From positions 13,493 to 49,710 of the forward strand of contig DGTF01000027.1 in assembly GCA_002394235.1 (NCBI GenBank): a stretch of 36,218 nt of DNA. Reading direction: 5' to 3'. Below, one piece after another: positions 1 through 25,808 of the stretch. Both the position numbers and the translations under genes were made by a program. This DNA is from Eubacterium sp. UBA4343 (GTDB lineage Bacteria > Bacillota > Clostridia > Lachnospirales > Lachnospiraceae). The notes under the pieces are model-generated. The model did no database searches. It was given only the letters and a program-made list of their open reading frames with translations, and was not told the origin of the DNA. Each line of letters opens with the position of its first letter. Within the stretch, counting starts at the first letter, position 1.

Positions 1-69
1 GCGAAGTATTCGTGTGCGGCGAGCGTCGCGATAGCGAGATAAAACTCGCGCAGCGTGTTTTATCTCGTT
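1..69. repeat. interspersed two-hairpin repeat, copy 1 (partial)
   Basis: Positions 1-69 are identical, base for base, to 19956-20024. The copy is cut by the window edge, so its first part is not visible. It holds the perfect inverted repeat CGAGATAAAA / TTTTATCTCG, which forms a stem of 10 bp, and it ends three bases beyond the guaA stop codon. It may therefore form the 3' end of the guaA transcript, in inverted orientation relative to that gene. The sequence identity is directly seen; a role in mRNA ends is inference. Confidence 0.9.
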
Positions 70-72
70 CCG

Positions 73-1629
73 TTATTCAAATTCGATGGTCCCCGGCGGC
101 TTTGAGGTGATGTCATAGAATACTCTGTTGACGTGATTCACTTCATTTACGATCCGGTTCGTTACTTTTTTCAATACCTCATACGGAATTTCCACGGCGT
201 CGGCGGTCATGAAATCAACGGTGCTTACTGCGCGAAGGGCAATAGCATAATCGTAGGTCCGCTCATCCCCCATGACACCGACCGATCTCATATTGGTCAG
301 AGCGGCGAAGTACTGGCTTGCGACCTTATTCATTCCGGCCTTGTCCATCTCCTCGCGATAAATCGCGTCGGCCTCCTGAACAATCTGTACCTTCTCAGGT
401 GTTACTTCTCCGATGATACGAATACCTAATCCCGGTCCGGGGAAGGGCTGTCTCATAACCAGTTCCTCCGGGATTCCAAGATGTAAGCCGACCTTCCGGA
501 CCTCATCCTTGAAGAGGTCGCGGAGCGGTTCAACGATCTCCTTGAAATCGACATACTCCGGAAGACCGCCGACATTGTGATGAGATTTGATCGTAGCAGA
601 TTCACCGCCCAGACCGGATTCCACAACATCCGGATAGATGGTTCCCTGGACAAGGTAATCGACCTTTCCGATCTTTTTTGCTTCCGCCTCAAAGACACGG
701 ATGAAATCTTCTCCGATGATCTTACGCTTTCTCTCCGGCTCTGTCACGCCCTTGAGATCAGCAAAGAAGCGATCTCCGGCATTCACGCGTACAAAGTTCA
801 GATCATAGGGGCCGTCAGGGCCGAAGACCTTCGATACCAGATCTCCCTCATCCTTACGGAGCAGTCCGTGATCCACGAACACGCAGGTAAGATTCCTGCC
901 GATTGCTTTCGACAGCAGAACAGCAGCCACAGAGGAATCGACTCCGCCGGACAGTCCGCAAAGAACCTTTCCGTCTCCGATCTTTTCACGAAGCTCTCGG
1001 ATCGTCTTCTCCGCGAAGTCATCCATTTTCCAGGTGCCTTTGCAGCCGCATACGTTCCATACGAAATTGCGAAGCATCTCTTTTCCGAACTGGCTGTGGA
1101 GCACCTCCGGATGATACTGAAAAGCGTAGAGCTTTTTCGAGGTGTTCTGAACAGCAGCGTACGGACAGTTCGCGGTATGCGCGATCACTTCAAAGCCTTC
1201 GGCGATTCTTGTGATGTAGTCATTGTGACTCATCCAGACAATGCTCTTCTCCGGAACCCCTGCAAATACAGGGGAATCCGGCCGGTCGATGATAAGTCCG
1301 GTTTTCCCGTATTCCCGCTCGGGCGCTTTCTGCACGTCGCCGCCCAGAACATACATCATGAGCTGTGCTCCGTAACAGAGGCCGAGAATCGGAATTCCCA
1401 TCTCAAACAGTTCCTTCGATGCCGTAGCCGCACCCTTCTCATATACGCTGTTCGGACCGCCGGTAAGAATGATACCCTTCGGGTTCATTGCCTTGATCTG
1501 GTCCAGAGGCGTCCGGTAGGAATAAATCTCACAGTACACATTGCTCTCACGCACCCGCCGCGCGACAAGCTGATTGTACTGACCGCCAAAATCAATGACG
1601 ATTACTTTCTCCTGATCTGCCTGTGCCAT
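73..1629 (-). CDS. guaA: GMP synthase (glutamine-hydrolysing)
   Basis: Converts XMP to GMP using ATP and glutamine, the last step of de novo guanine nucleotide synthesis, in the cytosol. At 518 residues it is the usual full length. The N-terminal class I glutamine amidotransferase domain shows GLCYGAQLM with the nucleophilic Cys and the HPEV segment carrying the His/Glu pair. The ATP pyrophosphatase domain shows the PP-loop [10 protein letters not shown], and the protein ends with the standard GMP synthase dimerization domain and TIEFE terminus. The ATG at 1629 is preceded, on the minus strand, by AAGGAG about 9 bases upstream. It is a single gene: its 5' side faces a mobile-element scar and its 3' side an interspersed repeat. 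A sigma-A-like promoter and a repeat-filled leader of about 200 nt lie upstream. I saw no purine riboswitch in the leader. Confidence 0.98.
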
Positions 1630-1650
1630 CTAAAATTCTCCTTATACCAA

Positions 1651-1769
1651 AATACATATGTCATCGATATATAGATGCTATTCATATACAGGTGCGGTAA
1701 ACATACAGCTATTATCCATATGCAGATGCTGTCCATATACAGATGTTATCCACATACATATGCTTTTTG
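1651..1769. repeat. 17-bp degenerate tandem repeat, seven copies
   Basis: Seven consecutive units of exactly 17 bp can be laid end to end from 1651. Examples are ATACAGATGTTATCCAC, ATGCAGATGCTGTCCAT and ATATAGATGCTATTCAT. The units are diverged but keep ATA-CAG-TG-T-TCCAT. The array lies between the proposed guaA promoter and the guaA ribosome binding site, so it would be transcribed as part of the guaA leader. No phase change is needed across the array. Confidence 0.85.
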
Positions 1770-1842
1770 TGCAGCGCCATATATGCAAGAAAACCATACA
1801 GATGATCTTGTTGATTATTATATCAAGTGACTGTACCTGACA

Positions 1843-1871
1843 ATTATACCCCTTGTAGAATCTTCTGTCAT
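1843..1871 (-). promoter_or_regulatory. sigma-A-like promoter of guaA
   Basis: On the minus strand ATGACA (1866-1871) is followed after 17 bp by a perfect TATAAT (1843-1848). Transcription would start near 1836, giving a leader of about 205 nt that includes the 17-bp repeat array. Confidence 0.65.
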
Positions 1872-2008
1872 TATCGAATTTCCATAAGCTTCTTTAGCTT
1901 TTGTAAGCGGTTAATCATCAGTACCTGTTGAACTCGGCTAATTTTTGAGATAATCAAGTCGAATAAATTTAAGATTTTTTTGACTTGCCCAAAGGAGGCT
2001 GGGTATTA

Positions 2009-2095
2009 ATGGACAAGATCACTTCCAATGTTCGACGCAGTCAGTGGCTTGACATCATTCATGCGTGTAATACCAGCGGTCTTACTTGGAAGTCG
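2009..2095 (+). pseudogene. IS66 TnpA (Orf1) N-terminal fragment
   Basis: A strong AAAGGAGG (1991-1998) precedes the ATG at 2009. The first 29 codons read like the N-terminus of the small IS66 accessory protein TnpA: MDKITSNVRRSQWLDII, then SGLTWKS, where the intact family continues into a Trp-Cys or similar segment and a YYYWLRK-type motif. Those later parts are absent. At about 2095 the similarity jumps to the end of tnpB in another frame, so this is a deletion product and not a functional gene. Confidence 0.7.
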
Positions 2096-2232
2096 GCAGC
2101 TTCAAGTGGCCTCGAAATACCAAAGAGCTTGCTGAGATTTCACCGGAGCAGTTTCATCGTCTGCTTGACGGTTTTGTTGTGATTGACACATCGACCGTTC
2201 AAACGGATCTGCATCCCACGGACCTCCTCTGA
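2095..2232 (+). pseudogene. IS66 TnpB (Orf2) C-terminal fragment
   Basis: Read from 2095, one frame on from the tnpA fragment, 45 codons precede the TGA at 2230. They begin GSFKWPRNTKELAEISPEQF, which is the characteristic C-terminal signature of IS66-family TnpB (G-F-WPRN...I-PEQ). Its N-terminal two thirds are missing. Direct joining to tnpA codon 29 shows an internal deletion of roughly the end of tnpA and most of tnpB. Confidence 0.75.
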
Positions 2233-2906
2233 TCTTTGTGCAAAACAATGGTGAAGATGATAATACGACTATCGTAGATCTTCATAAAAGAGGATTCCCG
2301 ATTGTTACGGTGGAAAGGTATGGTGAGGAACTCAAAGATGTACCGAGAATTCCTTTCGCAAACCTGGAAGCCGAGGAACAGGTAGTGGATTATCTGTACA
2401 GATGTGGACATAGACGTATAGCTTATATCAGTGGCCCGCCAACTGCTACGAATGCGATCCGGAGACTGGAAGGATTTCAAAATGGACTGAAACGGAATGG
2501 ACTGAGTGCAGATAATTCTCTGATCATGACAGGCAATTATAAGATGGAATCTGGACAGGATTGCATGCGGAAGATTCTCGATGCATGTATGCATAAAGGC
2601 GGAAAGCCAGATTTTTCTGCGGTTATGGCTGGAAATGACTTAATGGCAATCGGGGCATGCAAGATAATCCTTGAGAGAGGACTGCAGATACCGGATGATA
2701 TTTCTGTGGTTGGTTGTGATGGAACCATGTTAGCTGGTTTGATCCGACCGAAGATAGGAACTATTCGACTGGGCGGAATTGATATGGGGAAAAAGGCTGC
2801 AGAATATCTGATTAATGAGATTAAATCGCAGAATACCGAGAAGAAAAAAGTCCTCTTTCAGCCGGAATTGTTACTCGAAGGAAGAATAAAATCAATAGAG
2901 ACCTGA
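2223..2906 (+). pseudogene. LacI/GalR-family regulator lacking its DNA-binding domain
   Basis: The reading frame is open from about 2223 (PLIFVQNNG) to the TGA at 2904-2906, roughly 225 codons, against about 335 for an intact family member. It contains the second part of the periplasmic-binding-protein-like effector domain: GHRRIAYISGPP, then AGNDLMAIGA, IPDDISVVGCDG, and a terminal MGKKAAEYLINEI. The helix-turn-helix, hinge helix and the first part of the effector domain are missing. The break coincides with the IS66 remnant, so the gene was probably truncated by the insertion and later deletion. A GTG at 2238 could start a 222-residue fragment, but no convincing ribosome binding site is seen. 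Confidence 0.8.
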
Positions 2907-2961
2907 TTTAATGGATTATTAAAATTTTGAATTTTTAATTGTAAAATCGCATAAATTTCAC

Positions 2962-2992
2962 TTGACAAAATAGTGCAATGTGCCAGTATAAA
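2962..2992 (+). promoter_or_regulatory. putative promoter of the membrane protein gene at 3027
   Basis: TTGACA (2962-2967) is followed by GTATAAA, with a -10 at 2986-2992 depending on register and a spacer of 18-19 bp. It lies in AT-rich DNA 30-60 bp upstream of the start codon. Confidence 0.55.
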
Positions 2993-3026
2993 TTGCGTAG
3001 ACTTCCATTTATGAAGAGGCTTGATA

Positions 3027-5237
3027 ATGATGAAATTTCTGGGACGTATGTTTTCTTTCGTGCTCTCAGGCATCACCGCATGCATGCTGGGATTTGCACT
3101 ATTTTTTTCACTCATCACGGGGTTCGGAAAGGGACTTCCGGATATGGCGGTAGAGGGAATCATGCAGCGCTTTCCGGAGACCTGGTCTTCTGTTGAGATC
3201 CGTGTCTTTCTGATTGCGCTGATTCTTCTGTTTGTGGGATTCGTCTTCCTGGCATTTGCCTGGATTGATCGTGCGGGTCATAGGAAAAGGCTGCTGATGT
3301 TTCTGATTCTCGGCGGTGTATTTCTGGTGATGCAGCTTTTCATTGCGTTCGGGCTGCATACCATTCAGAATACGGATGCCTTTGAGGTTCAGGATCAGGC
3401 GCTTGCTATCGCGCGGGGCGTTCACCAGATCGTTGATTATACAAAATCCACGTATTTTGCCAAATATGGAAATAATGATCTTTACCTGATTTTCTGCGTT
3501 CAGGTCTTCAGGGTCTGTATGTTGCTGCATATTCATGCGTATCGCACGGTGTTTGCGGTGCTGAATGTGGCTGCCGTCGATCTTGGCATTCTCATGACCT
3601 GGCGGACGGTTTTTCTTCTGAGGGGGCCGAAGGCAGCACTGAAGGTATTTGTGCTGAGCGTTTTCAATCCGCTGAATATTCTTCTGATATGCTGGCCCTA
3701 TACCTGTACGCTCAGCATGCCGCTGATGATGCTGAGCCTGTGGATGGCTGCGGCGTTTCTGAAGGGGAAGGACAGCGGAACACTGCATTTTGTGGAGTTT
3801 CTGGTGATCGGACTGACGGCTGTGACCGCATATTATTTTCGTCCGACGGCCGCGTTCCCGGTAATCGCTCTCGTTCTGTGCGGCGTATGCGCAGGCGTGC
3901 AGAAGCTTTTAAAAGAATCATCTTCCTATACAATGGGAAAGAGCCGGAAATTGCGGAATCTTGCCAGAAAGGGTATCCCTGCCGTCTGCGTGATTCTTCT
4001 GATGGCGGTGACATCTTCTGCGATCCGCAGCGCTTCCCTAAGTCTGGATCCGGTGACAGACACACAGTTTCCGACCGTATACTGGCTGATGCTTGGCGCT
4101 TCGGAGACCGGACGGGTGAATTCGGAAGATATGAATTATAACCGGCGCATGTACACTGAGAAGGAGAACAGGGAAGCGGATATTGCAGCAGTCCGGCAGA
4201 TTCTGAAGGAGCGTGGTCTGGCTGGCAATGTGAAGCACTATCTGGAAAAAACAGGGCTGACATGGTCGGATGGAACCGCGGAATATCTCAGCCGCAGCAT
4301 GGGATCCGAGAACAGCCTTCCATGGCTGTATCGGCTCCTGAACGGGCCGGGTGCCGGAATTCTTTCTCTGTGTTGCCAGGCATATCGTATGGTGATGCTT
4401 TTTATGGCTCTTGCCGGAATTCTGGTCTGGCTTTGTTCCGGGAGAGAATCGGGATGTGCCGGCAATTTTATCTTCCAGGTATGCGTCATCACCCTGCTCG
4501 GGGGTTTTGTCTTTTATACATTCTGGGAAGGAAAGCCGGTTTACAGCTATCCCTTCCTGCCCTATTTGATTCTGGTCAGCCTGCCCGCCTGGGAAAAAGC
4601 GTGCCGCGTATATGAGGGGAAATATCAGGATGCGCCGTCTTCCGCGGAAATCGTACGTCGGCTTGTACTCGTTCTTCTGCTTGCCGTTACCGGGCTCGGG
4701 CTGTTTCAGAAGTACGTCATCACAGCGGAATCAGGCGTTTTTGATGTACCTTCCATTGTGTGTGACAGTACGGCTCTGGCCGACTGGGTCAGTGTCCCGG
4801 AAGGTCAGACGCTGACGCAGAGCTTCTATCCCTCGGGATCATTTAATACCATCTTGATCCGGGCAAGAACCGCAGGCAGGGGCAATACGAAGGACAAGTA
4901 CCGGATCGTCGTGGTCTCCGGTGATTCCGGAGAAGAGGCGAATTCCGCCGCTTATCGCCCGGAGGACGTCATTGCGGATAAAACAATTCAGGCTGGCAAG
5001 ATAAAGGATCGAAGCATCATCCTGAATTTCCCGACTGTTTTTCCGGCAAAAAACGAAGCCTTCCGGATCATTGTCACAAACCTTTCCACAGAGGGAAAAG
5101 GGCAGGACGGACTGCAGTCTACAGTACGTTTCGGAACCAGGCTTTGTTATGTGATGGATGAGTATAAAGGGAACTGCGTTGTCAGGGGCAGGAGGCATGC
5201 CGGTGATCTTTTAATTCGTGTAAGCAATATAGGGTAA
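3027..5237 (+). CDS. large polytopic membrane protein, possible GT-C glycosyltransferase
   Basis: About 736 residues with roughly a dozen hydrophobic segments over the first 570, followed by a soluble C-terminal region of about 150 residues with alternating polar/hydrophobic strands that looks like an extracytoplasmic beta domain. After the second or third membrane segment comes an acidic loop (NTDAFEVQDQALAIARG, about residue 115), and late in the membrane part a FWEGKPVYSYPFLPYLIL segment. Both are reminiscent of PMT/GT39-like GT-C enzymes that use lipid-linked sugars. I do not recognise the exact family and no substrate can be proposed. ATG 3027 is chosen because AAGAGG (3014-3019) sits 7 bases upstream; a TTG at 3021 is less likely. 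The gene is monocistronic, with its own promoter, and converges on the SRAP gene. Confidence 0.6.
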   Translation: MMKFLGRMFSFVLSGITACMLGFALFFSLITGFGKGLPDMAVEGIMQRFPETWSSVEIRVFLIALILLFVGFVFLAFAWIDRAGHRKRLLMFLILGGVFLVMQLFIAFGLHTIQNTDAFEVQDQALAIARGVHQIVDYTKSTYFAKYGNNDLYLIFCVQVFRVCMLLHIHAYRTVFAVLNVAAVDLGILMTWRTVFLLRGPKAALKVFVLSVFNPLNILLICWPYTCTLSMPLMMLSLWMAAAFLKGKDSGTLHFVEFLVIGLTAVTAYYFRPTAAFPVIALVLCGVCAGVQKLLKESSSYTMGKSRKLRNLARKGIPAVCVILLMAVTSSAIRSASLSLDPVTDTQFPTVYWLMLGASETGRVNSEDMNYNRRMYTEKENREADIAAVRQILKERGLAGNVKHYLEKTGLTWSDGTAEYLSRSMGSENSLPWLYRLLNGPGAGILSLCCQAYRMVMLFMALAGILVWLCSGRESGCAGNFIFQVCVITLLGGFVFYTFWEGKPVYSYPFLPYLILVSLPAWEKACRVYEGKYQDAPSSAEIVRRLVLVLLLAVTGLGLFQKYVITAESGVFDVPSIVCDSTALADWVSVPEGQTLTQSFYPSGSFNTILIRARTAGRGNTKDKYRIVVVSGDSGEEANSAAYRPEDVIADKTIQAGKIKDRSIILNFPTVFPAKNEAFRIIVTNLSTEGKGQDGLQSTVRFGTRLCYVMDEYKGNCVVRGRRHAGDLLIRVSNIG

Positions 5238-5246
5238 GCCAGATAG

Positions 5247-5342
5247 ACGAACCGGTCCGGATGGAACGCGGGTAATCGCATAACGAACCGGTTGTGATGG
5301 AACGCTGGTAATCGCATAATGATCCGGTTCAGATGGAATCAG
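5247..5342. repeat. 36-bp tandem repeat, 2.7 copies
   Basis: Units at 5247-5282 and 5283-5318 share ACGAACCGG, GATGGAACGC and GGTAATCGCATA. A third, truncated and more diverged copy (5319-5342) runs over the stop codon of the SRAP gene. The array fills the gap between two convergent genes. Confidence 0.85.
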
Positions 5343-5995
5343 TCCGGACGAACCGGGGTATGGCGGGAAACAGGAGTGATCATCATATCGTCCAGCATTT
5401 CCGCGGCGATTTTCTCCGGATCTGAGTCCGGGCAAATCCAGTCCCCGATTGCGTCTCGAGGAAGGATGACGGGCATGCGGTTGTGAATATGCGCGAGCTC
5501 CGGGGTCGGTTCTCTTGTGAGAACGGTGAAGACCGGATATGTCAGGCCGCTCGTCTCTTCCATGTGGTACAGCCCGGCAAGGTAGGTCAGATCGGATGCT
5601 TCGGGACGGATTGCGTACTTTCCACCGGTTTGCACCCGTCCGCCGGACGTCCGGATATGCTCCCATTCGAAATAACAGGATGCGGGAATGACGCAGCGAT
5701 GCCGTCTCCAGTCAGAGGAGAACGAGACCTTCTCCTTCGCAGATTCGATTCTGGCATTTACAACAGGCCCTTTCACACCGGGGATATGATATCCCCATAT
5801 CATCGGAAACACAGCTTTTTCTGCGGAAGCGGAGGGCGCAATTACGGCGGCAATATCGGTCGGACGGATTTCTCCAGATGTTCTGAATTCTTTTCCGAGC
5901 CGATCGGTCATTCTGCGCAGAAGTGCCGTGCTGCCCGCTGCCTCCGTGTATGGATTCATTTCTTCAGAGGGTTCGATAAAAAACCGCGTACACAT
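5339..5995 (-). CDS. SRAP-domain protein (YedK/HMCES family)
   Basis: 218 residues, normal for bacterial SRAP proteins. The family traps abasic sites in single-stranded DNA by a thiazolidine bond to the N-terminal Cys2, and has been called SOS response-associated peptidase. Visible family features are Cys2 exposed after removal of Met1 (MCTRFF, where CGRF is more usual), the NARIES segment with the conserved Asn, YFEW with the catalytic Glu, and HNRMPVIL with the conserved His. The start is supported by AAAGGAAG upstream on the minus strand. It stands alone between a convergent membrane protein gene and the divergent TerB operon. No SOS box was recognised upstream by eye. Confidence 0.93.
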   Translation of the reverse strand: MCTRFFIEPSEEMNPYTEAAGSTALLRRMTDRLGKEFRTSGEIRPTDIAAVIAPSASAEKAVFPMIWGYHIPGVKGPVVNARIESAKEKVSFSSDWRRHRCVIPASCYFEWEHIRTSGGRVQTGGKYAIRPEASDLTYLAGLYHMEETSGLTYPVFTVLTREPTPELAHIHNRMPVILPRDAIGDWICPDSDPEKIAAEMLDDMMITPVSRHTPVRPD

Positions 5996-6094: not shown

Positions 6095-6123
6095 TTGTTC
6101 TTTTCCATTGCAGCTGATATAAT
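6095..6123 (+). promoter_or_regulatory. extended -10 promoter of the TerB operon
   Basis: TTGTTC (6095-6100), a 17-bp spacer, then TGATATAAT with the perfect -10 at 6118-6123 and the upstream TG of an extended -10. Transcription would begin near 6130, exactly where the 31-bp repeat array starts, leaving a leader of about 190 nt. Confidence 0.65.
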
Positions 6124-6127
6124 AATT

Positions 6128-6274
6128 GAGAATATAACAGAACCGGATTTTGTGATTGAACAAGAATCGTGTTTCGGATTTTGGGATTGTGATAGAAATG
6201 GATTCTGTAATTAGAGATTGTAACAGAAACGGATTCCGGATTTAGAGATTGTAACGGAACGGTTTCTGGATCTT
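6128..6274. repeat. 31-bp degenerate tandem repeat, about five copies
   Basis: Units begin at 6128 (24 bp), 6152, 6183, 6214 (31 bp each) and 6245 (30 bp). The best pair begins GAGATTGTAACAGAAACGG and GAGATTGTAACGGAACGG; older units are more diverged. The array occupies almost the whole leader between the proposed promoter and the TerB protein start. This is the main content of the 325-bp gap upstream of that gene. Confidence 0.8.
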
Positions 6275-6320
6275 GAAATTGGAAAAAGTATCTGATTGTG
6301 GATTTGGTGAAGAAAATGTC

Positions 6321-8156
6321 ATGGAGAGGTCGGAATTGACTGCCAGTATTGTGGTGGACAACACAGGGAAGGGAAAAAATAAAAGAGAAGAAGTATACCG
6401 GGATACACCGCTTCCATTTGCGGGCAGCATTTCCGGGCAGTTCCCGCGCAAGGAAAGAGCAGCCAGGTGCAATGCAGAAGCAAAATCGGGTGCGGAAGCG
6501 GAGGAAAGCCCATTAGCAGGCCGGGGTTCTTCGGTGGAAGAAAGTCATTCAGCGGAACGGAACGGGTACTCCTCTGATGTACCCGGACAGATTCTGGAGA
6601 TGATCCGTCTGTATGAGTTCGGGGACGGTTCGCCCGAACACCGTGCCAGGATGTTCTGCAGGCAGGGAAAATTTATGGAAAAGTATGAGGATGATTTTCC
6701 CTGGCAGGGAGATTTCAGACGTTATTTCACGACCTATCACGATCTGAATATCCGTCAGCTGCGCGGCTACTTTACCTGGAGAACAGGAATACGAAACGGA
6801 GAATACCGCCCGATCTCCACGTCGCTGGCATATATGTACCTGTACGAGCTTCTGTGCGGCATCGGTGCGTCATCGGTTGACGATGTGCTTCAGAAGATGG
6901 AGACATTTGAGAAAAACTATGTAGATGCCGGCATCAGTGATCCGGGGATGCGGAAAAACATCCGCCGGTGGATGTTTGAATATGCGGTGCTTCATGGCCT
7001 GCCGGCAGAGAGGGTCCGCTCATACGCAAATCCGGAAGCTCTGGATTTTGATCATTCTCTTGTGATCCTGAAAAACCCGGAGAATCATGCGGATGAGGAG
7101 ATTTTTCATGCAATGAGCCGCTTCACAGGACAAACGATTGAAAAATCCGCCGTTCTGACCCGCAATAGAAGGAAGGGTATTCAACTTCTCGCCGGAATCT
7201 GGAGATATCTCTCTGAACATTTTGAGGATAACGGGAGGGATATTTTTACGGTGTGTTTCGGCACACGGAAATGTTATCCGTGGCATCCGCTCTCAAATGC
7301 AGTATACTGGGAGGAAAGGGAACTTCCGGACATGGATTTCAAGCTGGATGAATGCAGAACATTTCATCTGCGGGACGGGAAGTGGCAGGAGGAGCGGTAC
7401 GGCGGTCTTGGATTGCATCTGGACTGGTTCCGTTCCCTGCTTCGCGCCTCGGACAGGATTTTACGCAGAGAGCTGAGAACGGGACATTATCTTCGGGAAA
7501 GAAAGGACGAGCAATGGGCGGTTCCTTACATTGAAGCTGCGCTTCGGGAGATGGAGGCGGAAGAGCAAAGAGCAGCGATGCCCGTGATTGAAATAGATTA
7601 TTCCGGTCTGAAGCAGATCCGGGAGGATGCCGCGATCACGCGGGACAGCCTTCTGACCGATGAAGAGATAGAGGAAAGCCGGGAGCCGGAGAGCACGGGC
7701 GGACAGGAGATGGATTCCGCTGTGAAGATGGATCTGTCGTCGGCTGAGGCAGATACAGAGGTAGTTGTGAACAAGATCCGACCATCGTTGTATCTGGCAG
7801 ACATAGAGCCTGCCGTCAAGAAAATGCGGCCATCGTCGAGTGATGTGGATACAGAGGCCGTCGTGAAGAAGGATCGGCCGTCGTCGGGTGAAGCGGATGG
7901 AGATGCGGGAGTAAAACCGAAAACCGGTGCGGACAGCCTGTACCGCCGGATTTTGCTCATGCTTCTGGACGGGAAGCCCGTGAACGATGTGGTAAGAGAA
8001 AATCATCTGATGCCTGCTGTTATCGCGGATGCGATCAACGAGGCGTTTTTCGATGAAATCGGCGATAGTGTCGTCGAATGCGACGGGGATGAGATCTGCG
8101 TCGTTGAGGATTACAGAGAGGATATAATTCAGGCGTTAGGGGAGATCAGCTTATGA
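6321..8156 (+). CDS. TerB_N/TerB_C domain protein
   Basis: About 611 residues from ATG 6321 (GGTGAAG about 8 bases upstream; a TTG at 6273 is an alternative). Residues 1-85 are low-complexity and charged. The region from about 90 to 290 has the TerB_N signature: LYEFGDGSPEHRARMF, YFTTYHDLNIRQLRGYF, WRTGIRNGEYRPISTSLAY, YLYELLCGIG. The end (about 535-605) matches the TerB_C pattern: LLMLLDGKPV, HLMPAVIADAINEAFFDEIG, a final ED-Y-EDI. Between them lie four 16-residue repeats. The molecular function is unknown; TerB-type domains occur in tellurite/stress and phage-defence contexts. The stop overlaps the ATPase start by 4 bases (ATGA), so the two are translationally coupled. It probably acts with the downstream ATPase and helicase. 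Confidence 0.85.
   Translation: MERSELTASIVVDNTGKGKNKREEVYRDTPLPFAGSISGQFPRKERAARCNAEAKSGAEAEESPLAGRGSSVEESHSAERNGYSSDVPGQILEMIRLYEFGDGSPEHRARMFCRQGKFMEKYEDDFPWQGDFRRYFTTYHDLNIRQLRGYFTWRTGIRNGEYRPISTSLAYMYLYELLCGIGASSVDDVLQKMETFEKNYVDAGISDPGMRKNIRRWMFEYAVLHGLPAERVRSYANPEALDFDHSLVILKNPENHADEEIFHAMSRFTGQTIEKSAVLTRNRRKGIQLLAGIWRYLSEHFEDNGRDIFTVCFGTRKCYPWHPLSNAVYWEERELPDMDFKLDECRTFHLRDGKWQEERYGGLGLHLDWFRSLLRASDRILRRELRTGHYLRERKDEQWAVPYIEAALREMEAEEQRAAMPVIEIDYSGLKQIREDAAITRDSLLTDEEIEESREPESTGGQEMDSAVKMDLSSAEADTEVVVNKIRPSLYLADIEPAVKKMRPSSSDVDTEAVVKKDRPSSGEADGDAGVKPKTGADSLYRRILLMLLDGKPVNDVVRENHLMPAVIADAINEAFFDEIGDSVVECDGDEICVVEDYREDIIQALGEISL
7737..7928 (+). repeat. coding minisatellite, four 48-bp units
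   Basis: Four adjacent 48-bp units encode 16-residue repeats in the linker ahead of the TerB_C region: SSAEADTEVVVNKIRP, SLYLADIEPAVKKMRP, SSSDVDTEAVVKKDRP, SSGEADGDAGVKPKTG. Common positions are the Asp at 6, the Val/Ala core, the Lys pair and the terminal Arg-Pro. The exact multiple of three keeps the frame. Confidence 0.9.
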
Positions 8157-9484
8157 GTGATGAGCGCAGAAAAGTACCGAAGAGAATCGCGCAGACGGTT
8201 CTGAATTCGCTGAAGGGCGGTGTGGTTCCGAGGATCGGACTGCCCTATATCGCAGTCGGCAGAAAGAACGAGATTGAGGCGCTTTTACATGATGTAGACA
8301 TTATCTCAGAGGGAGGCGCATCCTTCCGGTTCATCGTCGGAAGGTACGGATCCGGCAAGAGCTTTCTGATTCAGACGATCCGGAATTATGTGATGGACCG
8401 CGGCTTTATCGTGGCGGATGCGGATCTTTCGCCGGAGCGCCGTCTTCAGGGAACGCGTGGACAGGGCCTTGCGACGTATCGGGAACTGATTGGAAATCTC
8501 TCCACGAAGACAAAGCCGGAGGGAGGGGCACTTACACTGGTTCTGGATCGGTGGATCAGTGCGGTGCAGGCGGATGCCTCAGGGGAGACGGGACGGATGC
8601 CGGGCGATCCTCTGCTCACGGAGGCGGTAGACCGGAAAATCGTCGCTGTGACCTCGCTGATCAGCGAGCTGGTGCACGGATTTGAGTTTGCTTCCCTTCT
8701 GTCGCGCTATTACCATGCTTACATTGATGGGGATGACGAGACAAAGGGAAAGGTTGTCCGCTGGTTTCGGGGCGAATACGCGCTGAAACGCGAGGCGAAA
8801 GAGGAGCTCGGCGTAAATATCATTATCACGGACGATGACTGGTACGATTATCTGAAGCTGTTTGCTGTTTTTTTTCGCCTGGCGGGCTACTCGGGGATGA
8901 TGATCATGATCGATGAGCTGGTGAATCTGTATAAGATCCCGAATGCCATCACCCGGCAGTACAACTATGAGAAGATGCTCACCATGTATAATGACACCCT
9001 GCAGGGGAAGGCAAAATACCTTGGCATTATCATGGGAGCGACACCGCAGGCGGTGGAAGACAGGCGCCGCGGGGTGTACAGCTACGAGGCGCTTCGATCC
9101 AGACTTGCGGAGGGGAAATTTTCGAGGCCGGGGGCGAGAGATCTCCTCGCGCCGGTCATCCGGCTTGATCCTCTGACTCCGGAGGAAATGCTGGTCCTGT
9201 GTGAAAAATTGTCTGACATGCATGCCGGATTGTATCAGTACGAGAGAAGAGTTACGACGGAAGAGCTTGGCGATTTCATCAAGCTTGAGTATGGACGGAT
9301 CGGAGCGGATCAGAACATCACGCCCAGAGAAGTGATCCGTGATTTTATCGAGCTGCTTGATCTGCTGTATCAGAATCCGTCCCTCGACATGGAGAAGATG
9401 CTTGCATCGGACGCATTTACGTACACGAAGTCGGAAGCTGTATCGGATCAGACAGACAGCAGCTACGCGACCTTTACGATCTGA
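8153..9484 (+). CDS. DUF2791 (BrxD-like) P-loop ATPase
   Basis: 443 residues. Walker A GRYGSGKS at 63-70 and a Walker B-like MMIMIDEL near 250 mark an AAA/STAND-like ATPase. The N-terminus (RIAQTVLNSLKGGVVPRIGL, YIAVGRKNEIEAL) and the later IIMGATPQAVEDRRRGVYSY segment fit the DUF2791 family, to which BREX BrxD belongs. In BREX type 2 and related loci this family is paired with a BrxHI-type helicase, as here. It presumably loads or regulates the helicase; that is inference. ATG 8153 overlaps the preceding stop (ATGA) and the helicase begins 13 bases downstream, so the three genes are a tight operon. No BrxC, PglX methylase or PglZ is in the window, so this is not a BREX locus in the strict sense. 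Confidence 0.88.
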   Translation: MSDERRKVPKRIAQTVLNSLKGGVVPRIGLPYIAVGRKNEIEALLHDVDIISEGGASFRFIVGRYGSGKSFLIQTIRNYVMDRGFIVADADLSPERRLQGTRGQGLATYRELIGNLSTKTKPEGGALTLVLDRWISAVQADASGETGRMPGDPLLTEAVDRKIVAVTSLISELVHGFEFASLLSRYYHAYIDGDDETKGKVVRWFRGEYALKREAKEELGVNIIITDDDWYDYLKLFAVFFRLAGYSGMMIMIDELVNLYKIPNAITRQYNYEKMLTMYNDTLQGKAKYLGIIMGATPQAVEDRRRGVYSYEALRSRLAEGKFSRPGARDLLAPVIRLDPLTPEEMLVLCEKLSDMHAGLYQYERRVTTEELGDFIKLEYGRIGADQNITPREVIRDFIELLDLLYQNPSLDMEKMLASDAFTYTKSEAVSDQTDSSYATFTI

Positions 9485-9497
9485 AAGAGAGCAGGGA

Positions 9498-11843
9498 ATG
9501 AATGTATTCGAAAGGTATGCACCATTTATACAGGATTATATTTACCGCTCCGGCTGGCAGACGCTTCGGGGCGTTCAGAACGCGGCGGGAGAAGCAATCT
9601 TCGGCTCTGACCAGAATGTTCTTCTGACTGCGCCGACTGCCTCGGGTAAAACCGAAGCGGCTTTCTTTCCCGTCCTGTCTCTTCTGGATGAGGAACCATC
9701 CCGGAGCGTAGGCGTTCTGTACATCGCTCCGCTGAAGGCATTGATCAACGATCAGTTCGGGCGGCTGAATGAACTGTGTGAAGAAGCCGGGATTGCTGTC
9801 ACCCGATGGCACGGAGACGCGGCACAGTCGGGGAAGCGAAGGCTTCTGAAGAAGCCCTCGGGTATTCTGCAGATCACACCCGAATCTCTGGAGTCGCTGA
9901 TGATCAATAAACATATGGAGATTCCTTCCCTGTTCGGAGATCTGCGATTCATCGTGATTGATGAGATTCATTCGCTTCTGCGGGCGGACCGGGGACTGCA
10001 GACCTTCTGCCTGATCGAACGGCTCTGCAGACTGGCAGGCTGCAATCCGAGGAGAATCGGGCTGTCCGCCACTATCGGGAATCCGGAGGAAGCGGGGAAA
10101 TTCCTGTCTGCCGGCAGCGGAAGAGGCTGCATCATTCCGGAATTCGAGGGCGCGAAAGAGGTCTGGCATCTCTCGATGGAGCATTTTTTTAACACCGCTC
10201 CGCAGGCGGATGAGGGGAAAACGATTCCGGAGAAGCTACCGGCTGCCGGAATAACAGCCGGTGCCGGACCGAAGGCTTCGACAATGGAAGAGGCAGCCGG
10301 TGCCGGGCCGAAAGCTCCGGCTATGGAAGAGGCAGCTGATGCCGCGCCGAATGGCGCTGTAGAAGAAGCAACCGATACCGCGCCGAAGGCGGCTGATCCC
10401 GGAATCGGGTATATTTTTGAACACACCCGGGGAAAGAAATGCCTGATTTTCACAAATTCGCGTGAGGAATGTGAGGCGGTCTGTCAGCATCTGAGGCAGT
10501 ACTGCGAGGCGGTGCACGAGCCTGACCGTTTTCTGATTCATCACGGAAACCTGTCGGCATCTTATCGGGAGAGTGCGGAAGAGGAGATGAAGGAGGATTC
10601 CCTGATGTCGGTGTGCGCCACGGCAACACTCGAGCTCGGCATCGATATCGGAAAACTGGAGCGCGCCTTTCAGATCGATGCGCCGTTCACGGTGTCCGGT
10701 TTCCTCCAGAGAATGGGAAGGACAGGCAGAAGGGGCAATCCTTCAGAGATGTGGTTCGTGATGCGTGAGGATCACCCGGAACCCAGAGCCATGCTGCCGG
10801 AGATGATCCCGTGGTATCTGATACAGGGGATTGCCCTGGTTCAGCTGTATCTTGAGGAACGGTTTGTCGAACCGCCCCGCACGGGCCGGCTCCCGTTCAG
10901 CCTGCTGTACCATCAGACCATGAGCACACTTGCGTCCTGCGGAGAGATGACGCCCGGAGAGCTTGCGTCGCGTGTGCTGACACTCTCGGCCTTTCATCGG
11001 ATCACGGCTGACGATTACCGTGTGCTTCTGCGGCATCTGCTGGAGATCGACCATATCAACCGGACCGAAAACGGAGGGCTGATTGTGGGAATAGCGGGCG
11101 AGAGGATTGTCAACAACTACAAATTTTACGCCGTCTTTCAGGAAAACATCGAATACACCGTGCGCTCCGGATCCGAGCAGATCGGAACCATCGTGAAACC
11201 ACCGCCTGCAGGGGACAAAATTGCCATCGCCGGCCGCGTGTGGGTGGTGGAGGAAGTGGATCATAAGCGCAGAGAGGTGTACTGTACGCTCGTCAAGGGA
11301 AATATCCCCGCCTATTTCGGTGATGTGGCCGGAGATATACACACCCGCATTCTGGAACGGATGTACGGGGTGCTCTGTGAGGAAAAATCATATCCATATC
11401 TCATGCGTCACGCCGTGGGAAGACTTTCCGATGCCAGAGAGACATCCCGGAAATCCGGGATGGCGGAGCATCCGCTGGTCCATCTCGGAGGAAACATGTG
11501 GGCGCTTTTTCCCTGGCTCGGAAGCTACGCGTTTCTTGCGCTGGAGCGTTTCCTGAAAATCCGGTGCGCAGGGCGGCTGGGGCTGAAAGGGCTGAATGCG
11601 TCCAGACCGTATTACATGCAGTTTACCATGAAAACGGACGAGACGGAGTTTTACCGGATCGTATCTGAGGAGGCCGGGAAAGATATCGACCCGCTAGAGC
11701 TGGTATATCCGAAGGAGGTTCCGGTTTTTGAAAAATATGACGAATACGTTCCGGAAGAACTGGTCCGGAAGGGATTTGCGTATGGAGTGCTTGATATCGA
11801 AGGAATGCGGGATCGTGTGCTCTCCTGGAGCAGGGAGGTGTAG
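9498..11843 (+). CDS. Lhr/BrxHI-like superfamily 2 DNA helicase
   Basis: 781 residues from ATG 9498, with a purine-rich ribosome binding site ending GGGA. Superfamily 2 motifs: APTASGKT (45-52), DEIH (155-158), LSATIG (near 190), CLIFTNSREE, ATATLELGIDIG and QRMGRTGRRG (near 404). The long C-terminal part after the RecA domains resembles the accessory domains of Lhr-type helicases. This matches the helicase that accompanies DUF2791 ATPases in BREX-related loci (BrxHI). A feature not expected of the family is a repetitive Ala/Gly/Pro/Glu insertion of about 50 residues between the two RecA domains. It likely works as the DNA or RNA:DNA remodelling motor of the three-gene module. Confidence 0.88.
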   Translation: MNVFERYAPFIQDYIYRSGWQTLRGVQNAAGEAIFGSDQNVLLTAPTASGKTEAAFFPVLSLLDEEPSRSVGVLYIAPLKALINDQFGRLNELCEEAGIAVTRWHGDAAQSGKRRLLKKPSGILQITPESLESLMINKHMEIPSLFGDLRFIVIDEIHSLLRADRGLQTFCLIERLCRLAGCNPRRIGLSATIGNPEEAGKFLSAGSGRGCIIPEFEGAKEVWHLSMEHFFNTAPQADEGKTIPEKLPAAGITAGAGPKASTMEEAAGAGPKAPAMEEAADAAPNGAVEEATDTAPKAADPGIGYIFEHTRGKKCLIFTNSREECEAVCQHLRQYCEAVHEPDRFLIHHGNLSASYRESAEEEMKEDSLMSVCATATLELGIDIGKLERAFQIDAPFTVSGFLQRMGRTGRRGNPSEMWFVMREDHPEPRAMLPEMIPWYLIQGIALVQLYLEERFVEPPRTGRLPFSLLYHQTMSTLASCGEMTPGELASRVLTLSAFHRITADDYRVLLRHLLEIDHINRTENGGLIVGIAGERIVNNYKFYAVFQENIEYTVRSGSEQIGTIVKPPPAGDKIAIAGRVWVVEEVDHKRREVYCTLVKGNIPAYFGDVAGDIHTRILERMYGVLCEEKSYPYLMRHAVGRLSDARETSRKSGMAEHPLVHLGGNMWALFPWLGSYAFLALERFLKIRCAGRLGLKGLNASRPYYMQFTMKTDETEFYRIVSEEAGKDIDPLELVYPKEVPVFEKYDEYVPEELVRKGFAYGVLDIEGMRDRVLSWSREV
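10257..10402 (+). repeat. coding minisatellite in the helicase inter-RecA linker
   Basis: Tandem in-frame units encode AGAGPKASTMEEA, AGAGPKAPAMEEA, ADAAPNGAVEEA and TDTAPKAADPG (13, 13, 12 and about 11 residues). They sit between the first RecA domain, which ends after LSMEHFFN, and the second, which begins GYIFEHTRGKKCLIF. The first two units are nearly identical, pointing to recent duplication. Confidence 0.85.
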
Positions 11844-11848
11844 AAAAA

Positions 11849-12070
11849 ATGTTTGGTCTTTTGCTGCTGATATTGATCGTGATCGGACTTTTTAAGCTGA
11901 CAGGCATTATCTTGCATGCTGTCGGGAAGATCCTTGGCGGAGTTCTGGGCATTTTCGGCTGGCTGGTTCTGGCGGGACTTGCGGCAACAGTATTCGGATT
12001 TGGTCTGTTTATGTTCGCGATTATCCTGATTGTCGGGGCGATCGCATTGATTATCAGTGTGATGACATAA
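11849..12070 (+). CDS. small hydrophobic membrane protein
   Basis: 73 residues, almost entirely hydrophobic, with two or three predicted membrane helices (MFGLLLLILIVIGLFKL; LGGVLGIFGWLVLAGLAATV; LFMFAIILIVGAIALIISV). AGGGAGG lies about a dozen bases upstream of the ATG, and the start is only 5 bases after the helicase stop, so it is cotranscribed with the TerB-ATPase-helicase operon. I do not recognise a family. It could be a membrane anchor or effector for the module, or simply an operon passenger. Confidence 0.65.
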   Translation: MFGLLLLILIVIGLFKLTGIILHAVGKILGGVLGIFGWLVLAGLAATVFGFGLFMFAIILIVGAIALIISVMT

Positions 12071-12734: not shown

Positions 12735-12753
12735 AAATAATTTAGCGAGAAAG

Positions 12754-12773
12754 CCCACGGTTTCAACCGTGGG
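12754..12773. repeat. left-end hairpin of the IS608-like element
   Basis: CCCACGG TTTCAA CCGTGGG, a 7-bp perfect stem with a 6-base loop, preceded by AAAG. It is the binding site for the TnpA HUH transposase on the single-stranded left end. Confidence 0.85.
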
Positions 12774-12838
12774 ATGATAGCGTCAAAGCGAAAATTGTTT
12801 TGATTGAATATGTGTACAAAATATTCTATTATATACAC

Positions 12839-13240
12839 ATGAAGAATGAATATAAACACACCAAAACAACCGTATCCTTGATTCACTATCACTTGGTGTT
12901 CTGTCCAAGATACCGTCGAAAGATCTTTAATATTCCAGGCATAGAAGAACGTTTCAAGGCATTAACTTCTGCGGAATGTCAAAAACATCATATCGATATT
13001 CTTGCAATGGAATGTCACATTGACCACGTTCATATGTTTGTTAGCGTATATCCCCAGCAGAGCATTCCTGATGTGGTAAAACAGATCAAAGGAGCGACTT
13101 CCCATCAACTGAGGGAGGAATTTCCCCAGTTAGCAAAAATGCCGTCCTTATGGACACGTTCTTATTTTGTAAGCACAGCCGGAAATGTAAGTTCTGAAAC
13201 TATAGAATGGTACATCCACACGCAAAAGACGAGGGATTAG
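12839..13240 (+). CDS. tnpA: IS200/IS605 transposase TnpA (HUH, Y1)
   Basis: 133 residues from ATG 12839 (MKNEYKHTKTTV), the usual size; an in-frame TTG at 12800 would add 13 residues foreign to the family. The metal-binding HUH motif is in HIDHVHMFV and the nucleophilic Tyr in WTRSYFVSTAG, followed by the terminal helix TIEWYIHTQ. It cuts and joins single-stranded DNA at TTAC and TCAA, moving the element as a circle. All catalytic residues are present, so it should be active. The stop is immediately followed by the tnpB ATG. Confidence 0.95.
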   Translation: MKNEYKHTKTTVSLIHYHLVFCPRYRRKIFNIPGIEERFKALTSAECQKHHIDILAMECHIDHVHMFVSVYPQQSIPDVVKQIKGATSHQLREEFPQLAKMPSLWTRSYFVSTAGNVSSETIEWYIHTQKTRD

Positions 13241-14752
13241 ATGCACACCGTAAGATTACTGTTAGCCACAACCAGATACGACGAAACGGTCATAGAAAAG
13301 CGTTTTCATGCCATTAGCCATATCCATAACGTAATCGTCAAGCATGCCCAAAAACGTCTGAAAAGACTGTCATATGATGCCGAATATCAATCTCTAAAAG
13401 CAGAATATAAGAAGCTCCTGAAAAAGGATACTCTCTCAATAGAGGAAAAGACAAGGCGAAAACTGATCTCCAGGCAAATGGCAGAAATCATTCGGACTCA
13501 CAGTTTGTCTGAGTATGCTTTTCAGTCATACATCAAAGTCTGCGGAAAACAGTTTCGGAAATGTCTTTCCTCACAGCAGATACAAAAAGAAGCCACCCGT
13601 GTCTGGAAGGGCGTCGAAGCAGTCCTCTATGGAAACGGGAAAGAACTTCATTTCAAAAAATACAGAGATTTTCATACGATCTGTGGAAAGACGAATACCA
13701 ATGGCGCAAAATTTCAAAAAGAGTCTTGTTCCATTCAATGGCTTGGGCTGAATATCAAATGTAAACTTCCAAAAGATCAAGATTATCTTCTGGAAGCCTT
13801 GGATTCGGAAATCTCCTATTGCGAAATGGCACGAAAGATGTTTCCAAATGGCTGGCACTATTATGTTGTTGTGTATCTGAAAGGCGATGCCCCGCATAAA
13901 ATAAAAGCCGTAGGAAGAGATGATGTTGCCGGTATTGATATCGGAACTTCTACCGTAGCCTGTGTATCTTCCCGGTCGGTCACATTACAAGAACTTGCCC
14001 CCAAATGCAGGGAATACAATCAGAAGATTGAGCGTTTATTAAGACGCATGGATCGTTCCAAACGGATCTTAAATCCGAATAAATATCGGGCAGACGGCAC
14101 GATCGAGCCGGCCAATCATGAAAAGTGGAAATTTTCCAAAGCCTACCGAAAGAATCAGAATCGGTTGAAATCTTTGTATCGACAAAAAGCAGCTTATGTC
14201 AAACAGTCACATGAAGAAACGATCAACAGACTTTTGCACGAATCTGTCTGTTTTATTGTCGAGGATATGTCTTTCACAGGTCTGCAAAGAAAGAAAAAAA
14301 CGACAGAACGCAGGGATCAGGTATCTGAAATCAGGCAAAAGGATGGTTCTGCAAAGAAGATTCATAAATATAAGCGCAGGAAACGTTTTGGTAAGTCGAT
14401 AACTGACAGAGCACCGGCAAGTTTTGTCACGATTCTGGAACAAAAGGCAAAACTTTACGGCGGTAATGTATCGAAAGTAAGTACGAAAGAATATAAAGCC
14501 AGCCAGTACGACCATGCGAAAGATCAGTACATAAAAACGGACTTGTCTGTGAGAGAAAAAATAATCGCCGGTCATAAGGTACAAAGAGACTTGTATAGTG
14601 CTTTTCTTTTGAGAAACAGTAACCAGAAATTAAACAAGCCGGACCAGAAAAAATGCATCTATGAATTTGATCGATTTGTAAAGCTACAAGACCAACTGAT
14701 CGAAAAAATGAAAGAAAACAATATATCTATGAAACAGTGTTTTGGATTCTAA
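13241..14752 (+). CDS. tnpB: RNA-guided nuclease TnpB (zinc-ribbon-less variant)
   Basis: 503 residues, starting directly after the tnpA stop. RuvC-like nuclease motifs are visible: GIDIGTSTVA with the first Asp, IVEDMSF with the Glu, and VQRDLYSAFL with the last Asp. TnpB uses a guide RNA from the element's right end to cut DNA next to the target motif at empty donor sites, promoting retention of the IS. Between the second and third RuvC motifs, where many TnpB proteins carry a four-Cys zinc ribbon, this one reads STKEYKASQYDHAKDQYIK and has no CxxC pair. The three acidic residues are all present, so nuclease activity is plausible. The region is AT-rich relative to the host genes. Confidence 0.92.
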   Translation: MHTVRLLLATTRYDETVIEKRFHAISHIHNVIVKHAQKRLKRLSYDAEYQSLKAEYKKLLKKDTLSIEEKTRRKLISRQMAEIIRTHSLSEYAFQSYIKVCGKQFRKCLSSQQIQKEATRVWKGVEAVLYGNGKELHFKKYRDFHTICGKTNTNGAKFQKESCSIQWLGLNIKCKLPKDQDYLLEALDSEISYCEMARKMFPNGWHYYVVVYLKGDAPHKIKAVGRDDVAGIDIGTSTVACVSSRSVTLQELAPKCREYNQKIERLLRRMDRSKRILNPNKYRADGTIEPANHEKWKFSKAYRKNQNRLKSLYRQKAAYVKQSHEETINRLLHESVCFIVEDMSFTGLQRKKKTTERRDQVSEIRQKDGSAKKIHKYKRRKRFGKSITDRAPASFVTILEQKAKLYGGNVSKVSTKEYKASQYDHAKDQYIKTDLSVREKIIAGHKVQRDLYSAFLLRNSNQKLNKPDQKKCIYEFDRFVKLQDQLIEKMKENNISMKQCFGF

Positions 14753-14926
14753 ACAGAAATAAAAAAGGTTCAGACATAAAACTTTCGTCTGGAAAGTAAG
14801 TACACAGGTATTGAAATCCTATAGACGATAAATCTTGAAAGACTTAACTATATCCCTCCTATACGACTGTGGTGATGTTAAGAGAATCTAAAGAATCCCA
14901 CGGCTTCAGCCGTGGGAGTATGTCAA
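14753..14926 (+). ncRNA. presumptive omega/right-end guide RNA of the IS element
   Basis: The non-coding stretch between the tnpB stop and the right end is where TnpB systems encode their guide RNA scaffold, which ends at the element boundary and uses flanking host DNA as the guide. The guide here would begin at 14927 with TGCCTGATCTATGG, inside the MATE gene, and the target-adjacent motif would be TTAC. AGACATAAAACTTTCGTCT (14772-14790) gives one short stem. This is inferred from position and known biology of the family; the transcript itself is not visible. Confidence 0.6.
14897..14916. repeat. right-end hairpin of the IS608-like element
   Basis: CCCACGG CTTCAG CCGTGGG, with the same 7-bp stem as the left end, preceded by GAAT and followed by GAGTATG and then the TCAA terminus. 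Confidence 0.85.
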
Positions 14927-19767: not shown

Positions 19768-19930
19768 ACGTATCGGACGCAATATGGTATTCTTTATTTT
19801 GAGTTTTTGTGTCCTTCACATAAACCGGGATGCTTTGCAAGGACGCCACATATGGTGTAAGCTGCGGATTGCTTCGTGCCCCGCACTTTCGCAATCCTGC
19901 CGGTGTGAGATGAAAAGTGTTTTTTATTTA

Positions 19931-20024
19931 CGCGAACAGTGAGCCGCAGCCGAATGCGAAGTATTCGTGTGCGGCGAGCGTCGCGATAGCGAGATAAAAC
20001 TCGCGCAGCGTGTTTTATCTCGTT
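19931..20024. repeat. interspersed two-hairpin repeat, copy 2 (complete)
   Basis: Begins GAACAGTGAGCCGCA and ends TTTTATCTCGTT. First hairpin: GCCGCA (19943-19948) with TGCGGC (19970-19975), and inside it CGAAT (19951-19955) with ATTCG (19963-19967). Second hairpin: CGAGATAAAA (19990-19999) with TTTTATCTCG (20013-20022). Positions 19956-20024 equal 1-69 exactly; the first 17 bases match the start of the third copy at 36202. Confidence 0.9.
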
Positions 20025-24602: not shown

Positions 24603-25541
24603 ATGAGAGTTGTATTTATGGGCACGCCGGATTTTGCGGTCGGTACACTGAATGCGATCGCGGATGCGGGCTATGAAATAGCGGGTGTTGTCACCCAGAC
24701 GGACAAGCCGGTGGGAAGGAAACAGGAGCTGAAGCCTACCGCCGTCAAGGCAGCTGCTCTGAAGCGGGGATTGGCGGTATTCCAGCCGCGGAAGCTGCGG
24801 AACAATCCGGAGTTTCTGGAGACGCTGAAGCAGCTTGCACCGGATGTCATCGTGGTGGCAGCATACGGAAAGATTATTCCAAAGGAGATCCTGGAACTGC
24901 CGAAATACGGATGTCTGAATGTACACGCGTCTCTGCTTCCTAAATACCGTGGAGCGGCGCCGATTCAGTGGGCGGTCATCGACGGCGAAGAAAAGTCCGG
25001 AGTAACGATTATGCAGATGAACGAGGGACTGGATACCGGTGACATGCTGGCATCGGTCGAGGTGGCGATCTCGAAAGAGGAGACAGGAGGCTCGCTGTTT
25101 GACAAACTCGCGAAGGCAGGCGCGGAGCTTCTGGTGGAAACGCTTGCGAAGCTGGAGAAGGGTGACCTTCATCCGGTGAAACAGCCGGCGGAAAGCCCGA
25201 CCGCATACGCACGTATGATCAGTAAGGCGGACGGAAGGATTGACTGGTCGCTTCCTGCCAGGAAGCTGGAATGTTTCATCAGAGGAATGAATCCCTGGCC
25301 AGCCGCGTACACCTCCCTGCAGGGAAAAGGGCTGAAAATCTGGAAGAGCCGGGTTGAAACAGGAGAATCCGGGGAAAAGCCCGGCACGGTACTTGCCGCG
25401 GATGAGAGCGGCCTGCTCGTTCAGACCGGTGAAAATGCACTGCGGATCGCGGAACTTCAGCTGGAAGGAAAGAAGCGCATGAAGGCTTCGGATTTTCTGC
25501 GCGGACACAGTGTGAAGACGGGGACCGTTCTTGGGGAATAA
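24603..25541 (+). CDS. fmt: methionyl-tRNA formyltransferase
   Basis: 312 residues, full length. Formylates initiator Met-tRNA using 10-formyl-THF. It begins MRVVFMGTPDFAVGTL, with the N-terminal Rossmann fold. The catalytic region shows NVHASLLPKYRGAAPIQWA (around 106-124) containing the Asn/His pair, followed by GVTIMQMNEGLDTGDML with the Asp. The C-terminal tRNA-binding domain contains IRGMNPWPAAYT. The last codons (TTGGGGAATAA) merge into the first unit of the repeat array that follows. Confidence 0.97.
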   Translation: MRVVFMGTPDFAVGTLNAIADAGYEIAGVVTQTDKPVGRKQELKPTAVKAAALKRGLAVFQPRKLRNNPEFLETLKQLAPDVIVVAAYGKIIPKEILELPKYGCLNVHASLLPKYRGAAPIQWAVIDGEEKSGVTIMQMNEGLDTGDMLASVEVAISKEETGGSLFDKLAKAGAELLVETLAKLEKGDLHPVKQPAESPTAYARMISKADGRIDWSLPARKLECFIRGMNPWPAAYTSLQGKGLKIWKSRVETGESGEKPGTVLAADESGLLVQTGENALRIAELQLEGKKRMKASDFLRGHSVKTGTVLGE

Positions 25542-25808
25542 CAGGGTGTTATAAACGCAGATTTTTCGGGAATAACCGGACTTTTATAAACACGGATTTT
25601 CCGGGAATATCCGGGCTTTTATAAACACAGATTTTCCGGGAATAAACGGGTATAATACAGAGACATATTTTTCCCGGGGAATTACCGGGTTTCATACAGA
25701 TACAGACGGTTCCCGGAAAATTGCCGGGATTCCTATTTGCGAGACGATTCCCGGAGGACAGCCGGGATTCCTATTTATGAGACGATTCCCGGAGGACAGC
25801 CGGGATTC
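25535..25808. repeat. 35-39-bp hairpin-bearing tandem repeat, about seven units
   Basis: The two best units, 25733-25770 and 25771-25808, are 38 bp and differ by two bases in the centre of CTATTT-(GC/AT)-GAGACG. Older units to the left (starting TTATAAACAC or CATACAGA) are diverged but each carries a CCGG-rich inverted repeat: TCCCGG/CCGGGA with changing loops (GGACAG-like, AAATTG-like, AATA). The array starts at the fmt stop codon and ends about 12 bases before the ribosome binding site of the peptidase gene. It accounts for the whole 294-bp gap. Confidence 0.85.

Follow-up and report, generated by a model that had tools for sequence, protein, structure and literature searches.

A chromosomal Shango (SngABC) operon with predicted anti-phage activity in Eubacterium sp. 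UBA4343

The DNA studied here is a stretch of 36,218 nt from Eubacterium sp. UBA4343 (GCA_002394235.1, DGTF01000027.1 positions 13,493-49,710), called the window below, and all coordinates are window positions. On its plus strand a TerB_N/TerB_C gene, a BrxC/D-type ATPase gene and a helicase gene follow each other, and then comes a 73-aa hydrophobic open reading frame (ORF). The end of the TerB gene (8156) overlaps the ATG of the ATPase gene (8153) by ATGA, the ATPase stop (9484) and the helicase ATG (9498) are separated by 13 nt, and the helicase stop (11843) lies 5 nt before the small ORF (11849-12070). An original prediction, made from the sequence alone, had given these four genes with the same strand, order and spacings, and it is exact on the spacings. 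The features of the locus are as follows.

6095..6123, plus strand: candidate promoter (TTGTTC, 17 nt, TATAAT), read from the sequence
6185..6270, no strand assigned: imperfect tandem repeat in the leader, period 31, 2.8 copies (repeat search)
6321..8156, plus strand: sngA, TerB_N/TerB_C protein, 611 aa (PF13208, PF15615; PADLOC SngA, 235.6 bits)
7689..7931, plus strand: predicted disordered SngA linker, residues 457-537 of 611 (predicted local distance difference test score, pLDDT, <50)
7929..8153, plus strand: SngA C-terminal part, weakly winged-helix-like
8153..9484, plus strand: sngB, BrxC/D-type ATPase, 443 aa, Walker A GRYGSGKS at residue 63 (PF10923, 1.3e-167; PADLOC SngB, 623.3 bits)
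9498..11843, plus strand: sngC, superfamily 2 (SF2) DEIH helicase, 781 aa (PF00270, PF00271; PADLOC SngC, 925.9 bits; motifs)
10255..10351, plus strand: in-frame 39-nt tandem repeat in the SngC linker (repeat search)
11849..12070, plus strand: 73-aa hydrophobic ORF, no Shango component
5339..5995, minus strand: SRAP protein, divergent neighbour (PF02586, 4.4e-34)

The three large proteins matched the three Shango models of PADLOC-DB, namely SngA (5.1e-70), SngB (6.5e-188, about 437 of 439 model positions) and SngC (5.6e-279). Profile searches agreed with the families that had been read from the sequence: TerB_N (74.1 bits, 1.7e-20) and TerB_C (69.5 bits, 4.6e-19) are both above their cut-offs, the ATPase matched BrxC_BrxD (PF10923), and the helicase matched DEAD (PF00270, 2.4e-29) and Helicase_C (PF00271, 2.3e-17). 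We are highly confident that this is a Shango (SngABC) operon on the chromosome, intact and subject to purifying selection, with its anti-phage activity predicted from sequence. The original prediction had proposed a separate and undescribed module, and this part is superseded by the PADLOC matches; Shango has already been described in other bacteria and the module here is not a new kind, the earlier report from E. coli reportedly being that of Millman et al. 2022.

In Pseudomonas aeruginosa PA14, Shango consists of three genes with demonstrated anti-phage activity; in PAO1 it cuts the plating of many but not all phages 10-100-fold and protects liquid cultures, and the same paper cites an E. 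coli report with about 10-fold effects on two phages (PMC10250203). Like the PA14 system, the window locus keeps genes for a TerB-domain protein, an ATPase and a DEAD/DEAH helicase together and matches the three PADLOC models over most of their length, a likeness that rests on these models and not on direct alignment with tested Shango proteins. It differs from the PA14 system by long linkers in SngA and SngC and by the lineage-specific hydrophobic ORF after sngC.

The ATPase and the helicase share superfamilies with BrxD and BrxHI, so that the locus could be read as a degraded bacteriophage exclusion (BREX) locus which retained brxD and brxHI. However, the BREX models scored far lower (BrxD 161.5 vs SngB 623.3 bits; BrxHI 417.2 vs SngC 925.9 bits), and the ATPase missed the BrxD equivalog of NCBIfam (163.7 bits against a cut-off of 350). 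PglZ (PF08665) had no match in the genome itself (85.8% complete), and a PADLOC scan of 15 window ORFs gave neither BrxC/PglY nor PglX, no genome-wide search being made for either. Besides, a TerB protein is the third partner, and these three genes are found together in many genomes. We give a BREX remnant next to no chance and rule it out on the PADLOC scores, the missed BrxD cut-off and the missing PglZ match; the original prediction had likewise set this defence-type module apart from BREX.

The helicase had been described as Lhr/BrxHI-like. Its kinship to BrxHI is seen in the 417.2 bits above, and PMC12278908 groups SngC with BrxHI, DruE and DpdJ as a possible clade of defence helicases. 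The Lhr winged-helix model (WH_Lhr) stayed below its cut-off on SngC (15.2 vs 27 bits), and TIGR04121, the equivalog of ligase-associated Lhr-type DNA damage response helicases, was missed (210.6 vs 850 bits). Searched against the sequences of solved structures, SngC matched 25 distinct ones at E 1e-10, and SngA and SngB matched none. In these matches the first helicase domain of SngC aligned to YprA and to chains of ATP-dependent DNA helicases, which we ourselves take to be of Lhr type.

SngB keeps Walker A and Walker B, and SngC keeps helicase motifs I, II, III and VI. Compared with the sister species G014 of the same genus, synonymous divergence (dS) is 0.68-0.88 for sngABC and 0.68-1.02 for nine flanking genes, and the ratio of nonsynonymous to synonymous divergence (dN/dS) is 0.24 for SngA, 0.04 for SngB and 0.08 for SngC. 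The gene order SRAP, sngABC, MATE is kept in G014, which differs by several extra kilobases on the left and in the DNA that separates sngC from MATE. Because the dS of sngABC falls in the range of the flanks, dN/dS is low and the order is shared, the operon was probably at its present site already in the common ancestor of the window and G014 and has been kept functional since.

Shared flanks, together with divergence of the locus in step with them, would also suit a housekeeping module for DNA repair or stress with no more than a likeness to Shango, and so would the ordinary chromosomal neighbours and the G+C of the locus (0.52-0.56, near 0.51 of the window). The distribution argues against such a module, to which we assign a small probability. 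In the genus, 5 of 16 genomes had an SngB match (2 of 9 good ones) and 11 had none; in the family, a match was present in 41 of 397 genomes (37 of the 319 good ones) and lacking in 356 (282 of the good ones). A few SngB loci lack SngA or SngC, which makes complete Shango slightly rarer than these counts. The patchy distribution offered as a check in the original prediction is thus present. Within the genus, SngB is 94% identical to that of the window in G014, 81% in G015 and 67% in G011 and G012, and it reaches 86% in other genera.

Relatives are encoded in 311 stretches of named genomes; the best 80, at 82-94% identity, take in chromosomal copies of Treponema putidum and T. vincentii. Relatives of SngA and SngC were present in 80 of 80 loci. 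Between Treponema and the window, SngB and SngC are 82-85% identical, while GuaA is 59-61% and PriA 40-46% identical over the matched parts. Since SngB and SngC of Treponema are far closer to those of the window than GuaA and PriA are, the comparison indicates that Shango moved between phyla, which is a further point against a housekeeping role. In addition, 685 plasmid records (541 predicted conjugative) carry SngB relatives, all <60% identical and with a Shango status not established for each one. Carriage by phages was rejected: 50,697 phage records gave no match, and no viral contig was confirmed by a search that detects close relatives only.

The layout of the operon varies among relatives. 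In G011 and G012, sngA is located downstream of sngC on the opposite strand. The layout of sngB-sngC with a downstream sngA of opposite strand was seen in L041, L042, L067 and L068 and appears as one change on a quick SngB tree. In T. vincentii (L194:396-12496), kilobases separate the three genes from each other, as though others had come in between.

The small ORF had been put forward as a membrane protein and fourth component, and a new four-gene system with the 73-aa protein as effector would be in line with its start 5 nt past sngC and with the good ribosome-binding site ahead of it. It turned out that the three large genes recur together but the small ORF does not recur with them: tblastn found no homologue in 43 Shango loci of the family, and a profile search of ORFs of at least 30 aa in 123 loci gave no unbiased match. 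Two profile matches (E 0.004-0.005) in L073 and L074, about 2 kb from sngC and from one genus, were treated as chance because their composition bias exceeds the score. Only one of 110 loci with room has a small hydrophobic ORF on the same strand within 60 nt after sngC, and its sequence is unrelated. Relatives within the genus occur in G004 (69% complete) and G009, neither with an SngB match, and on another contig in G014; only four proteins of a large database resemble it, and a search for viral contigs confirmed none with a relative. Here the ORF is probably real and co-transcribed, and it is not a Shango component. A new four-gene module, which we regard as very improbable, is ruled out, as the small ORF is not kept alongside the three large genes and these are Shango. 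It is equally hard to believe that this lineage rebuilt Shango, with loss of a YjbR domain from SngA and gain of the 73-aa peptide as membrane effector or anchor, and turned a DNA-interfering system into an abortive one.

Within the Shango operon, SngA changes much faster than SngB and SngC; in Treponema it is 40-41% identical to that of the window, against the 82-85% of the other two. Its start is more likely ATG 6321 than TTG 6273 (a longer ORF of 627 aa), because nucleotide similarity to G014 begins at 6321. Many SngA relatives carry an N-terminal domain of the YjbR fold, a DNA-binding type shared with MmcQ/YjbR proteins, and the SngA of the window is without it: the PADLOC SngA model is matched from position 63 by the latter and from position 13 by relatives with the domain. 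It was probably lost here. PMC7641849 mentions fusions of YjbR with TerB. The same YjbR-like domain is also present in an ORF of 249 aa (L115:11525-12271, E 6.2e-9) in G003, a genome of the genus without an SngB match. Three points of this comparison are new, all of them modest: SngA evolves fast, its YjbR domain comes and goes, and there was transfer between phyla.

For the mechanism of Shango, listed as unknown in a 2026 review (PMC12926258), the comparison gives a testable structure, in which SngB and SngC would act as a slowly changing motor pair and SngA as a fast subunit with a variable N-terminal domain of DNA-binding type. SngA, with one possible DNA-binding fold in its own sequence (the weakly winged-helix-like C-terminus) and one further likely in relatives (the YjbR double-wing domain), may be the DNA-recognition and scaffold subunit. 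It would bring the ATPase (SngB) and the SF2 helicase (SngC) to phage DNA or to intermediates of its replication, where ATP-driven remodelling or unwinding by SngB-SngC would keep the phage from replicating, with no nuclease supplied by the system. No nuclease was recognised in the sequences of the three Shango proteins, and fast SngA beside slow SngB and SngC fits a subunit facing a changing target. As a whole we hold this mechanism only tentatively, as a possibility somewhat short of even chances. If SngA sets the target, two operons that are nearly identical in SngB and SngC should swap their phage specificity in a laboratory host when their SngA is swapped.

The promoter upstream of sngA is a plausible but putative one. 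TATAAT at 6118-6123 can be read in the sequence, with a poor -35 box (TTGTTC, 3 of 6 matches) 17 nt upstream, but a consensus promoter scan did not list this site and gave 2 promoter-like sites in the region against 4.7 in shuffles. An Rfam search of the window gave no match at gathering scores. Imperfect tandem repeats with a period of 31-39 nt occur at 5247-5338, 6185-6270, 10255-10351 and 25534-25808, in intergenic positions and in frame within the linker of sngC. This SngC linker with its 39-nt repeat is missing from a relative in another genus.

To describe the neighbourhood, a script picked 158 ORFs of 43 loci, of which 133 were scanned and 25 were left out by hand (mostly short ones, a few over the size limit, and the SRAP of the sister species). 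With PADLOC at 1e-10, the best 25 of 49 models include mad3 (5 matches) and DEDDh (2), and among the matches listed there is one each for PDC-S01, HEC-02B, PD-T4-6, mad6, subtilase and a GlgB-like model. For a control, which was not random, 120 ORFs were selected from the flanks of the window and the loci of small-ORF, MATE and SRAP relatives; after 12 short ones had been omitted, the remaining 108 gave mad3 (2), mad8 (2), DrmD (1), DndA (1) and SspA (1). The matches in the neighbours are scattered and not clearly above this control, so that the expected enrichment in defence islands is not visible in this family as far as these ORFs show, which is a rough negative. In Pfam, the 25 of 176 families listed for the 133 neighbours are mostly of metabolic, transport and signalling genes. 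The case for defence comes from patchiness and transfer, not from the neighbourhood.

The divergent SRAP gene is where it had been reported, but as context of the module it does not hold: among the 123 loci, which include G014 twice (L040, L116) and in which at least 6 repeat a contig judging by length, SRAP lies beside Shango only in this one sister species. Mobile elements had been claimed on both sides. The right flank does contain an IS200-type transposase (Y1_Tnp), and the ORF after it, matched by Cas12u2 only weakly (1.6e-4), is a probable TnpB, but no mobile element was found among the 7 ORFs scanned on the left (1-5237). Further upstream on the same contig, 4 ORFs are glycolytic enzymes or parts of pyruvate phosphate dikinase. 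The IS200/IS605-type element (12741-14900; G+C 0.40 vs 0.51) interrupts a MATE transporter gene, of which the sister species has an uninterrupted copy.

Besides, a strongly folding repeat of 101 nt (predicted -50.8 kcal/mol), with no Rfam match, lies at 19924-20024 and 1-69. It has 80 matches in the same genome, 74 in G009, 51 in G014, 25 in G011 and 1 each in G002 and G012, some of them second hits to one copy; the remaining 10 of the 16 genus genomes have none. Species whose genes show a dS near 0.8 share copies with an identity of up to 100%, and the copies compared lie at different sites. Given near-identity at such a dS and the differing sites, the repeat is a recently mobile or homogenised hairpin element.
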